Assembly (NCBI GenBank): GCA_019429305.1
Contig: JAHYIR010000012.1
Location: forward strand, 1 to 52,926
Length of the DNA: 52,926 nucleotides
Direction: 5' to 3'
Source of the DNA: Candidatus Cloacimonadota bacterium
Lineage (GTDB): Bacteria > Cloacimonadota > Cloacimonadia > Cloacimonadales > JAJBBL01
A program made the position numbers and the translations under genes. Shown in pieces: positions 35,755 through 44,468 of this stretch (its first letter is position 1; every line of letters starts with the position of its first letter). The notes beneath the pieces were generated by a model. That model was not told where the DNA came from. It was given only the letters and a program-made list of their open reading frames with translations, and did not search any database.

Positions 35755-38208
35755 TCATCCCTCTCTTAGCCGGAACTTTTTCAATCTCAGAGAATTGTAA
35801 ACGACATTCAAGGAACTCATCGACATAGCAGCAGCCCCTATCATGGGATGAAGAAGTCCGAGCATTGCCACTGGAACGGCTATAAGATTATAGAACCATG
35901 CCCAGAAGAAATTTTCCTTTATTTTTCTAAATATAGCTTTGGATAGCTTGATAGCATAAACTACATTGACCAATTCACTGCGAATAAGAGTAACGTCAGC
36001 CGATTCGATCGCAATATCGGTCCCAGTGCCTAATGCTATCCCCACATTGGCTTGTTTAAGAGCTGGAGCGTCATTTATCCCATCACCAACCATGGCTACG
36101 ATCCCGAATTCTTTTTGGAGTTTAATGATTTCATTGACTTTCCCTTCCGGTAAGATCTCAGCAGCAATTTTCTTGATTCCGGCTTTCTCAGCTATAGCTT
36201 GGGCGGTTTTATAGTTATCCCCGGTCAGCATGATAGTAGTAATACCCATTTCGTTTAATCTGCTAATAGCTGTTACCGAATCCTCTTTTATTTGATCGGC
36301 TACTGCTAAGAGCCCAGCCAATTTTTTATTAATAGCAACCAATAACAATGTTTTCGCTTCTGCTTCCAGCTTTTGAATATCGGATTCTGCAATTTGATAA
36401 GAAATTTGATGATCTTCCAGCATTCTTCTATTACCGGCAAGCACTTCTTTACCTTCAATCAATCCTTTAATACCTTTACCGGATATGGCACTGACCTCTT
36501 TTACAGGCAACAAATCTATCTCATACTCTTTGCTTTTATCTATTATTGCTTGTGCTAAAGGATGTTCAGAACTGTTCTCCAATGAAGCTGCATAGAGCAA
36601 TAATTCTTGCTCTCCATAATTATTGTAGGTAATTACATCAGTCACTACCGGTTTACCGGAAGTGATCGTTCCTGTTTTATCAAAGGCAACCGCCTTTACC
36701 TCTCGAAGTGTCTGGACAGCTTCTCCGCTTCTGATCAAGATCCCGTTTTCTGCTCCCAGTCCGCTACCAACCATAAGAGCTGTCGGGGTTCCTAAGCCGA
36801 GAGCGCAGGGACAGGCAATGACCAAAACAGCTGTGGCTGTAATAAAGGCGAGTGTTAAGTTTGTCAGATCGGGATTGACCCAAGGAAGAAAAGTTGCACC
36901 CCATTCAATAATGATCCTGTGGAATGAGGGAAAGATATTAAAGGAAAGAAAGGTCAGAAAAGTTAAAACAAGGATTATGGGAACAAAATAACCAGTTACC
37001 CTATCTGCAAAATCTTGGATCGGAACTTTCGAACCCTGACATTGTTCGACAAGTTTGATTACCTGGGCGAGAAATGTTTCTTTACCTGTTTTGGTAACTT
37101 TTGCTTTTATATAACCCTGCTTATTGATCGTTGCGCCAATAATTTCATCACCCTCTTGCCTGAAGACCGGCATCGATTCCCCGGTTACCATCGACTCATC
37201 TATATTCGTATTTCCCTCTATTATTATGCCGTCGATGGGGATCTTTTCACCCGGTCTGATGATCATCAAATCACCTATCACCAACTCTTTAACGGAAACT
37301 TCTATCTCCTCATCTCCCCTCTGGATACGGGCTGTCTTAGCTCCCAGCTTGATCAGTTTCTTTATCGCCTCTGAAGTTTTCCCTTTGGCTTTTGTTTCCA
37401 AATATTTACCGATCAGATGAAAAGTCATGATCGTTGCCGCCATCTCTATAAAGGTCTGTACTTGCCAAAAGAATCCCGAAAGCCCTATAATAAAAGGGGG
37501 CAGAGACCCAAGACTGACCAATACATCCATATTAGCGACTTTGTTTTTGATAGAAAGCCAGCTGGAATGGTGAACTTTACTACCGAGAATGAAAACAACC
37601 GGGAAGCCGAGAAGAACAGTTAACAGGTGATATGCAGGGATCTTCACTCCGAACATTCTGATGATCATAAGTGTCATAATCGTACCGGCTAAGATCGCTG
37701 CATATAGCATCTTTTTATAAGCTATTTGAATGCTTTTATCTTTCTCTTCCACTACTGTATCATCTTGAACTTCGGCTTCATAACCGACAGAGGCAACGAT
37801 TTTCTTAATGTCTGCCAATTTAATAACTGTGGGGTCGTAAGTGATAATCCCTTTTTCATTGGCAAAATTGATATCAACCTTCTTGATCCCTTCACTGTTA
37901 CCGAGAATACTTTCTATATTGGAGACACAACTTGTGCAGGACATCCCCTTGATATTTAATGTTATAGTTTCTAATTCTTCGGCTTGATGTAATGCCGCTT
38001 TATAACCTATTTTGGCTACTTGCTTGGCTATCTCATCAGCTGATATCTTTGACTCATCTAGTGTTATATAAGCTTTGGCTGTAGCAAAGTTGACATGAGC
38101 TTCGGAAATACCCGGTAACTCATTAAGTCTTTTCTCTATCGTAGCGGCACATCCTGCGCAGGTCATCCCTTCGATATCAAATATCCATTTATCTAAATCC
38201 TTGTTCAT
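35755..38208 (-). CDS. copA: Copper-exporting P1B-type ATPase
   Basis: The ATG at 38208, with GGAGA just upstream, is preferred over more distant in-frame starts and gives 817 residues. Two heavy-metal-associated domains come first, with GMTCAGC (Cys17/Cys20) and GMSCTSC (Cys91/Cys94). Eight transmembrane helices follow, with the ion-channel motif Cys466-Pro-Cys468 in 'VIACPCALGLGTPTAL'. The phosphorylated Asp510 is in 'FDKTGTITSGKP', followed by the 'SEHPLAQAI' nucleotide-binding motif and 'MVGDGINDAPAL'. It pumps Cu(I) out of the cytoplasm at the expense of ATP. It is a single gene with its own terminator, divergent from the translation operon. No copper regulator is visible next to it. Confidence 0.95.
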   Translation of the reverse strand: MNKDLDKWIFDIEGMTCAGCAATIEKRLNELPGISEAHVNFATAKAYITLDESKISADEIAKQVAKIGYKAALHQAEELETITLNIKGMSCTSCVSNIESILGNSEGIKKVDINFANEKGIITYDPTVIKLADIKKIVASVGYEAEVQDDTVVEEKDKSIQIAYKKMLYAAILAGTIMTLMIIRMFGVKIPAYHLLTVLLGFPVVFILGSKVHHSSWLSIKNKVANMDVLVSLGSLPPFIIGLSGFFWQVQTFIEMAATIMTFHLIGKYLETKAKGKTSEAIKKLIKLGAKTARIQRGDEEIEVSVKELVIGDLMIIRPGEKIPIDGIIIEGNTNIDESMVTGESMPVFRQEGDEIIGATINKQGYIKAKVTKTGKETFLAQVIKLVEQCQGSKVPIQDFADRVTGYFVPIILVLTFLTFLSFNIFPSFHRIIIEWGATFLPWVNPDLTNLTLAFITATAVLVIACPCALGLGTPTALMVGSGLGAENGILIRSGEAVQTLREVKAVAFDKTGTITSGKPVVTDVITYNNYGEQELLLYAASLENSSEHPLAQAIIDKSKEYEIDLLPVKEVSAISGKGIKGLIEGKEVLAGNRRMLEDHQISYQIAESDIQKLEAEAKTLLLVAINKKLAGLLAVADQIKEDSVTAISRLNEMGITTIMLTGDNYKTAQAIAEKAGIKKIAAEILPEGKVNEIIKLQKEFGIVAMVGDGINDAPALKQANVGIALGTGTDIAIESADVTLIRSELVNVVYAIKLSKAIFRKIKENFFWAWFYNLIAVPVAMLGLLHPMIGAAAMSMSSLNVVYNSLRLKKFRLREG

Positions 38209-38316
38209 AATATCTCCACTTAGAAACTTCATATTTAAAAAATATAACTGATTTAACCACTTGAGCAAAAGAGAATCCTTTTCTTGATCTATGATTTACC
38301 AATGATTGACCTCAGG

Positions 38317-38404: not shown

Positions 38405-38437
38405 CTGTAGGGGCAATTCACGAATTGCCCTTTTTTT
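38405..38437 (+). repeat. GTAGGGGC hairpin repeat followed by T-run (copy 2)
   Basis: GTAGGG-GCAATTC-AC-GAATTGCCC is followed by TTTTTTT. The 9-bp stem GGGCAATTC/GAATTGCCC is perfect. On the plus strand it has the shape of an intrinsic terminator although no plus-strand gene lies upstream. It is inverted relative to the copy at 38514-38546. Confidence 0.75.
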
Positions 38438-38513
38438 ATTTATAATCTCATCTGAATTATTGATGCCCAGTTCTTCTATAAATTAACAAAGAAACCCGCA
38501 AATTTCTTTTAGT

Positions 38514-38546
38514 TTAGTGTGGGCAATTCGTGAATTGCCCCTACAC
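38514..38546 (-). repeat. GTAGGGGC hairpin repeat (copy 3, inverted)
   Basis: GGGCAATTC-GT-GAATTGCCC (38521-38540) is flanked by GTGT on the left and CTACACTC on the right. Read on the minus strand it starts GAGTGTAGGGGCAATTCACG, the same as copy 2. It lacks the T-run. Confidence 0.75.
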
Positions 38547-38780
38547 TCAATTTAAGGCGATTTTGTGTAAACATGCATCAGTAACTGCTGATAAATCATA
38601 GTTAGATGATTAAAAAAAATGGATTTTATTTAAAAAACTCTTGACTAACTATCCCCACTGAAAAAGCTGTTACTGAAAAATAAGTAGTAGAAATGAAGCT
38701 GCCTGCTTCTACCTAACGAGTAAAGATAGCTTGTTAAGGTTGTGGATAAGAAAAAGAAATAGCAAAAGACTATTTTTCTG

Positions 38781-38815
38781 AAAAGCGGGTGGACTTTGTT
38801 CACCCGCTTTTTTTT
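38781..38815 (+). terminator. Terminator-like hairpin directly before infC (likely attenuator)
   Basis: An 11-bp stem AAAAGCGGGTG / CACCCGCTTTT with a 9-nt loop runs into a T-run (to 38815), only 15 nt before the infC Shine-Dalgarno. The upstream gene is divergent, so no plus-strand transcript needs ending here. The hairpin therefore sits in the infC leader. Leader attenuation of infC-rpmI-rplT (L20 feedback) or of pheST is known in other bacteria. The mechanism here is unresolved. Confidence 0.7.
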
Positions 38816-38842
38816 ATGAAAAAGCGTATAAGGAGGTGTTAT

Positions 38843-39424
38843 ATAATACGCATAAGAAAAGGTAAGGCAAAATTAAAGATCGAGGTACCTAAGGAGAGGA
38901 TAAATGAACAGATATCCGCTACTAAGGTACGACTCATTAGTGCCGATGGTAAACAAGTTGGAATTGTAGATCTTGACAGAGCTTTGCAAATGGCAGACGA
39001 TGCCGAACTTGATTTAGTAGAAATTGCTCCCGGAGCTGATCCTCCGGTGTGCAAGATAATGCGATTCGACAAATATTATTACAACAAAGAGAAGGGTGTT
39101 AGAGAAGCTAAAAAACGACAACATGTAGTACAACTAAAAGAGATCAAAATGGGTCCTAATACCGAAGAACATGATTTCGAGTTTAAGAAACGTAATGCCA
39201 TTAAGTTCTTGAAACAGCAGAACAAGGTAAAATTCACCATCCGTTTTAAAGGACGACAAATTGCTCATAAAGATTTGGGTTATCATCTTTTAGAACGTCT
39301 GATCGAAGATTTAAAGGATTATGCTGAGGTAGATACAAAACCGACTGAGGAAGCGAGAACAATATCCATGATCATGGTAGCTCGCAAAGATATTGCTAAT
39401 GCCGAAGAAGAGTCAACAGCATAG
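38843..39424 (+). CDS. infC: Translation initiation factor IF-3, probable AUA start
   Basis: The 193-residue protein contains the complete IF-3 N domain ('ERINEQISATKVRLISADGKQVGIVDLDRALQMADDAELDLVEIAPGADPPVCKIMRFDKYYY'). The basic linker and C domain follow ('VVQLKEIKMGPNTEEHDFEFKKRNAIKFL'). The only AAGGAGGTG lies at 38830-38838, and the codons 6 and 9 nt after AGGAGG are both ATA (38843 and 38846). The in-frame GTG at 38789 lies inside the leader hairpin, and the ATG at 38816 has no ribosome site and would translate the Shine-Dalgarno itself. IF-3 rejects non-AUG starts, which in E. coli (AUU start) makes infC self-regulating, and an AUA start would work the same way. It is the first gene of the translation operon. 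Confidence 0.85.
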   Translation: MIRIRKGKAKLKIEVPKERINEQISATKVRLISADGKQVGIVDLDRALQMADDAELDLVEIAPGADPPVCKIMRFDKYYYNKEKGVREAKKRQHVVQLKEIKMGPNTEEHDFEFKKRNAIKFLKQQNKVKFTIRFKGRQIAHKDLGYHLLERLIEDLKDYAEVDTKPTEEARTISMIMVARKDIANAEEESTA

Positions 39425-39696: not shown

Positions 39697-40053
39697 ATGT
39701 CACGTGCAGTAAATAATGTAGCAGCTAAAAAACGTAGAAAGAAATATTTAAAAGCAGCCAAAGGATATTTTGGAGCTCGCAGCCGTCAATATCGAGTAGC
39801 TCGTCAAGCAGTAGAAAAGGGTTGGCTCTATGCATATCGCGATCGCAAAAATCGAAAACGGGAATTCCGTAAATTATGGATTCTTAGAATCAATGCCGCA
39901 GCTCGCTTAAACGGACTTACATATAGTGCCTTTATTAATGGCTTAAATAAAGCTAATGTAGATATTGATCGCAAAGCACTTGCTTTTTTAGCAATGAACG
40001 ATCCGGATGCTTTTGTTAAATTATGTGATTTAGTGAAATCTAATGCTAATTAA
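39697..40053 (+). CDS. rplT: 50S ribosomal protein L20
   Basis: The 118-residue protein matches L20 end to end: '[70 protein letters not shown]', then the globular C-terminal part. L20 is needed for early 50S assembly and in several bacteria represses its own operon by binding the leader mRNA. The hairpin and stems upstream of infC are the natural place to look for such a site here. AAAAGGAG is the ribosome site. Confidence 0.98.
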
Positions 40054-43989: not shown

Positions 43990-44268
43990 ATGCAGACAGT
44001 CGAAGTTGTAATACTCGGAAAGAAATACCGCTTAAGGTCAGATGATCCCGATAAATTACATGAATATGCTGAATATCTGAATAACACACTTGATGAGATT
44101 ATTGCTAAATACGGTTTAGTAGATGCCAAAGATACTTTAACACTTGCAGGAATGATTTTAACAGAGCAACTGTTTCATCTGACTGAAGACAGTGATCATT
44201 TAAAGAAAGAAATTGACAAATTACATAGCAAAATTTCTTCTTTTATTAAAGATATCGCTAAGAAATGA
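43990..44268 (+). CDS. zapA: Cell division protein ZapA
   Basis: The 92-residue protein matches ZapA: 'VEVVILGKKYRLRSDDPDKLHEYAEYLNNTLDEIIAKYGLVDAKDTLTLAGMILTEQLFHL', a small N-terminal beta-alpha domain followed by a long dimer/tetramer-forming helix. ZapA bundles FtsZ filaments at the division ring. It is preceded by the coiled-coil gene 18 nt upstream and followed directly by the 6S RNA candidate, an arrangement shared with many bacteria. Confidence 0.9.
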   Translation: MQTVEVVILGKKYRLRSDDPDKLHEYAEYLNNTLDEIIAKYGLVDAKDTLTLAGMILTEQLFHLTEDSDHLKKEIDKLHSKISSFIKDIAKK

Positions 44269-44270
44269 AA

Positions 44271-44441
44271 CTCCTGCGGTATGCGTGAATATATTTGTAA
44301 TTGAGCCAATATATAATCTGGGAATCGATCCACTTGTGGCTTACATGCCCGGCAACAAGACCGGGACTTAAAAAGCAAGAAAGGTAGAAGCCCATCTTGA
44401 ATTTAGGTTCAAGAAGTACAAATAGCACGGTACCGCAGGTA
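44271..44441 (+). ncRNA. ssrS: 6S RNA (global regulator of RNA polymerase)
   Basis: The 200-nt gap between zapA and rny is not empty. Its ends pair perfectly: CCTGCGGTA (44273-44281) with TACCGCAGG (44431-44439), giving an RNA of about 171 nt. Inside are features lined up with E. coli 6S RNA: CATGCCCGGCAACAAGACCG then GGACTTAAAA (E. coli GCATGCTCGGTCCGTCCGAG then AAGCCTTAAAA), and CTTGAATTTAGGTTCAAG (E. coli CTTGAACCAAGGGTTCAAG). The location right after zapA is the classical one. 6S RNA mimics an open promoter and sequesters sigma70-RNA polymerase in stationary phase. Here it seems to be processed from, or transcribed within, the operon, since rny follows after 27 nt. Confidence 0.88.
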
Positions 44442-44468
44442 ATATAAATCACAAAAACGAGGTAATAA

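Follow-up and report, generated by a model that had tools for sequence, protein, structure and literature searches.

A non-AUG start codon and a diverged L20-type leader at infC in Cloacimonadota: two probable feedback controls on one operon

The infC locus of a Candidatus Cloacimonadota bacterium raises two questions: where translation of IF3 begins, and whether the hairpin preceding the gene regulates it. A first-pass annotation had proposed an AUA start behind an attenuator-like hairpin. The window (the whole 52,926-nt stretch analyzed) contains the operon order infC-rpmI-rplT-pheS-pheT, with pheS and pheT named from their translations. The upstream neighbor, a heavy-metal-type ATPase gene (35755–38268), is transcribed in the opposite direction, which makes infC the first gene of the operon. 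Its product is IF3, scoring 211 bits against a cut-off of 60 for NCBIfam TIGR00168. A sigma-70 consensus scan 5′ of the leader found no promoter. The features of the start region and the following genes are:

38830–38838, + strand, Shine-Dalgarno (SD) sequence AAGGAGGTG, a perfect complement of the 3′ end of the organism's own 16S rRNA
38843–38845, + strand, predicted infC start codon ATA, from SD spacing and phylum comparison
38843–39424, + strand, infC (IF3, 193 amino acids from the ATA), from TIGR00168
39475–39669, + strand, rpmI (L35), ATG start, from the ORF list and start comparison
39697–40053, + strand, rplT (L20), ATG start, from the ORF list and start comparison

Two other elements flank this region. 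A 6S RNA gene (44268–44445, + strand, 68.3 bits) lies shortly 3′ of pheT. A 140-bp element (38406–38545) with 25-bp inverted ends, TGTAGGGGCAATTCACGAATTGCCC, occupies part of the spacer that separates the ATPase gene from the infC leader. There are 12 end-like matches genome-wide, several of which recur as facing pairs ∼120–145 bp apart (C1, C2, and C29), so that it resembles a mobile element of the small, non-autonomous kind.

The start codon of infC

The 3′ end of the 16S rRNA gene, which also lies in this window, reads ...GGATCACCTCCTTT, making AAGGAGGTG a perfect 9-nt (9/9) complement that points to the ATA at 38843, the first of a tandem ATA ATA (38843/38846). This arrangement, together with an in-frame GTG (38789) and ATG (38816) further upstream, is present as first annotated, and the GTG does lie inside the leader stem (38781–38811).

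Comparison across the phylum addresses which codon is used. An IF3 match was found in 117 of the 125 Cloacimonadota genomes searched, and the upstream DNA, anchored on the IF3 protein, was readable for 113 infC genes. All 113 have a GGAGG with a start codon 4–6 nt further on, which is ATA in 67, ATT in 24, TTG in 17, and ATC in 5; ATG or GTG follows the GGAGG in none. Because this layout is present in every member of the phylum with a readable start, it is not a chance arrangement, and the conservation of ATA or ATT after the SD, the comparison proposed in the first-pass annotation, is borne out. By genus, 26 use only ATA, 11 only ATT, 10 only TTG, and 1 a mixture of ATC and ATT. A quick IF3 tree, of modest support, implies ∼10 start-codon changes, none of them to ATG. 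As a control, rpmI and rplT of the same operon begin with ATG at 30/30 loci each. The TTG starts all fall in one family, f10, whose other members use ATT (TTG loci L009, L012, L022, L031, L079, L082, L087, L097, L099, L100, L115, L118, L121, L122, L132, L138, and L139).

IF3 might instead start at the upstream ATG or GTG, with the ATA codons read as internal isoleucines; the frame is open from GTG 38789, and a conserved internal isoleucine column would likewise show ATA, ATT, and ATC. However, the sequence further upstream shows no protein-level conservation, and 68 of the 113 genes have an in-frame stop upstream of the start column with no ATG, GTG, or TTG in between (CTG was left out of this count). 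Among the ATA/ATT/ATC genes this holds for 54 of 96, in which a start other than ATG, GTG, or TTG is consequently forced. An in-frame upstream ATG of any kind occurs in only 15/113 genes, at scattered distances, contrary to what homologs beginning at such a codon would show. In the window, ATG 38816 has no SD and lies directly 3′ of the terminator U-tract (38808–38815). In 17 genomes, moreover, the start column is occupied by TTG. The internal-isoleucine reading fails because it leaves the upstream stops, the TTG lineage, and the constant spacing unexplained, and we regard it as very unlikely.

The second ATA (38846) is also a workable start, being part of the tandem and 9 nt from GGAGG. Among relatives, however, the first codon is invariant while the second is ATA, ATC, or ATT, and the lineages with ATT, ATC, or TTG have their start column 4–6 nt past GGAGG, which makes initiation at the second codon improbable. 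The start column thus corresponds to the first ATA. On these comparative grounds, a non-AUG start for infC is close to certain, and its assignment to 38843 rather than 38846 is somewhat less sure. The AUA start first proposed is therefore upheld, by its phylum-wide conservation and by the genes in which an upstream stop leaves no ATG, GTG, or TTG. Standard gene callers would misplace it at GTG 38789 or ATG 38816; the start is now fixed. More broadly, infC avoids AUG across a whole, mostly uncultured phylum, with a start codon that shifts between ATA, ATT, and ATC.

AUA was initially taken to be rare on infC, which is not right. At loci of other phyla fetched by IF3 similarity, Clostridia have ATA or ATT after the SD, KSB1 has ATT or ATC, and Gemmatimonadota have ATA, ATC, or CTG, although the SD-to-start assignment is ambiguous in a few of them. 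Retapamulin ribosome profiling places ribosomes on AUA at Staphylococcus aureus infC (PMC13009471), and infC starts with ATC in Streptomyces, ATT in Escherichia coli (PMC5472188), and ATT in Listeria (PMC13068326). IF3 discriminates against initiation complexes formed on any start codon but AUG, GUG, or UUG (PMC5472188, PMC13009471). The window's infC combines a strong SD with a start codon outside that set, as expected of an IF3-discriminated start, and autocontrol of infC through its start codon is most likely, given the established IF3 rule. As IF3 is said to accept UUG, the TTG lineages of f10 should escape such control and may have lost it. Start-codon autocontrol is accordingly not universal in Cloacimonadota, since TTG is the start in 17 genomes of a single family, and these lineages provide a natural test of its worth.

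The leader upstream of infC

The first-pass annotation had recognized a terminator-like hairpin as a possible attenuator but not the receptor domain (38689–38743) that we find upstream of it. The two together make up a candidate L20-type attenuator spanning 38689–38815, with the following parts:

38695–38709, + strand, H1 hairpin (GAAGC-UGCCU-GCUUC), its 3′ part forming half of the putative antiterminator, from the RF00558 alignment, phylum alignment, model R1, and fold
38711–38740, + strand, H2 hairpin (ACCUAACGAG...CUUGUUAAGGU), from the RF00558 alignment, phylum alignment, R1, covariation, and fold
38751–38779, + strand, H3 hairpin, variable, between the receptor domain and the terminator, from the fold
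38781–38815, + strand, intrinsic terminator (hairpin 38781–38811, U-tract 38808–38815), from sequence and fold
38699–38708, + strand, antiterminator 5′ half CUGCCUGCUU, pairing with 38783–38792, from truncated-transcript fold and coevolution
38783–38792, + strand, antiterminator 3′ half and terminator 5′ arm AAGCGGGUGG, from fold and coevolution

The Rfam L20_leader model (RF00558) aligns over its full length (model 1–127) to 38685–38821 with 43.7 bits (E 1e-7); the gathering cut-off of 58.7 is not reached here or in any of the 125 phylum genomes. At E up to 1e-3, 74/125 genomes have matches, the strongest just 5′ of infC, and the weak ones away from infC are probably chance. H1, H2, and the terminator follow one another in the L20_leader order, and the leader occupies the L20_leader position directly 5′ of infC-rpmI-rplT. 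A terminator scan missed the hairpin at 38781–38811, probably owing to the overlap of its stem with the U-tract.

Across the phylum the leaders share a common plan: H1 (GAAGC..GCUUC), a U, H2 (RCCUUA..UAAGGY), a variable spacer, the terminator, and the SD. A model of H1-H2 with its conserved junction, R1, matches 87/89 infC leaders; training rows match by construction, and 47 of the 49 untrained leaders match, many of these being close relatives. Within the window's own genome R1 has a single match (38689–38743, 53.1 bits). It does not generalize beyond the phylum, as loci from Clostridia, Gemmatimonadota, and KSB1 gave no clear match. The H1-H2 alignment, which was fitted to the structure and so favors it, is 91.7% paired and contains 58 double-change cells versus 16.1 in shuffles (0/500 as high), with far fewer also in slid controls.

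Folding of successively longer transcripts reveals two alternative structures. A transcript ending at 38792 forms the antiterminator (38699–38708 with 38783–38792), whereas one ending at 38816 forms H1, H2, H3, and the terminator (z −4.9). Complementarity between the H1 region and the terminator 5′ arm averages −15.7 kcal/mol within genomes versus −12.3 between genera, a difference equaled in 0/20,000 permutations over 44 genera, with relatedness only partly removed. Fold and coevolution thus both point to the alternative pairing that characterizes L20_leader. The antiterminator partner seems to lie in H2 rather than H1 in family f11 (L027, L090) and, by eye, in genus G052 of f4 (L137).

These results bear on two simpler interpretations. 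A hairpin that served solely to end transcription from upstream, without any switching, would account for a strong stem followed by a U-tract, but the upstream gene has the opposite orientation, and in 44 genera the terminator arm changes in step with the receptor domain and the antiterminator partner; we judge this reading quite improbable. The position of pheS and pheT after rplT might suggest a Phe attenuator or T-box serving those genes, but the leader matches L20_leader instead. Neither the gathering nor a relaxed threshold gave an Rfam T-box match, inspection by eye revealed no Phe-rich leader peptide, and only L20_leader stood out among other Rfam regulators at relaxed threshold, so that control by phenylalanine is highly improbable. 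The first-pass annotation had allowed for a second control layer responsive to L20 or Phe-tRNA; the L20 part is supported, and the Phe-tRNA part, lacking T-box or Phe signals, is not. Its attenuator-like hairpin can be assigned to the L20 type from the RF00558 alignment, R1, covariation, coevolution, and fold. We describe the element as a probable diverged relative of L20_leader, and an L20-type attenuator at infC is likely.

A further hairpin may surround the ribosome-binding site:

38824–38851, + strand, possible hairpin GCGUAU...AUACGC with the SD in its loop and the second AUA paired (fold −5.4 kcal/mol, z −2.2)

The SD lies in the loop of differing stems in families f2, f9, f6, and part of f4. 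In ATA genera, a genome's own arms fit each other better than swapped arms (2/20,000 permutations), a result that relatedness may inflate. Since several lineages are without the hairpin and kinship may inflate the test, we keep it as a suggested third element.

A combined model and its relation to known systems

Considered together, these data are consistent with two feedback devices in a single infC-rpmI-rplT leader, an L20-type attenuator and IF3 start-codon autocontrol. At low levels of L20, the rplT product and presumed ligand, the 3′ part of H1 would pair with the terminator 5′ arm, allowing RNA polymerase to read through. Free L20 bound at the H1/H2 junction would hold H1, letting the terminator fold and turning the operon off. 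In read-through transcripts, infC would be translated from the AUA at 38843 on its perfect SD, and high IF3 would repress its own translation, because IF3 rejects starts other than AUG, GUG, or UUG. What is observed comprises the sequences themselves, the lack of an AUG or GUG start throughout the phylum, conservation of the leader, and coevolution of the pairing that forms the switch. L20 binding, attenuation, and IF3 autocontrol are the predicted parts of the model, to which, as a joint explanation, we assign a probability of roughly 0.8.

The L20 RNA has been described as narrowly confined to Firmicutes (PMC6097659), and we found nothing linking it to Cloacimonetes in the openly readable literature. 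Separately, an L20-leader-like layout (GAGGC..GCUUC, GCCUGAC..GGGU, terminator) precedes infC at a Gemmatimonadales locus, L043, ∼26 nt from the infC match; RF00558 scores 33 bits in that genome, and loci L042 and L044 have a similar layout 5′ of infC. The L20 leader may thus be distributed more widely than Firmicutes and Cloacimonadota. A broader scenario would make it old and widespread (Bacillota, Cloacimonadota, probably Gemmatimonadota), and not an innovation of Firmicutes, with ATA-start Cloacimonadota coupling to it a lineage-variable SD-loop hairpin that tunes IF3-sensitive initiation, and with TTG lineages having given up autocontrol; as a whole this is tentative and rather doubtful.

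The infC starts of E. coli (AUU), Streptomyces (AUC), and S. aureus (AUA) likewise combine a strong SD with an IF3-discriminated codon, and differ in that the Cloacimonadota case is known from sequence alone and part of one family uses TTG. The leader resembles the Bacillus subtilis L20 RNA in its operon, H1, H2, variable H3, terminator, antiterminator pairing, and conserved H1/H2 junction, which by analogy would correspond to the B. subtilis L20 site (PMC6097659). It differs from that RNA and RF00558 in having diverged below the Rfam cut-off, in occurring outside Firmicutes, and, in two genera of f11 and in G052, in the apparent location of the antiterminator partner in H2. The E. coli L20 operator of rpmI-rplT also imposes L20 feedback on the same genes, but it acts inside the operon, on translation and by a pseudoknot, and infC there is not under L20 control (PMC10931766). 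Both types of device have precedents. The new finding is that they are documented, and conserved, across Cloacimonadota, which extends the L20 RNA beyond Firmicutes, with two known feedback controls retained in a lineage for which we found no prior description of either.
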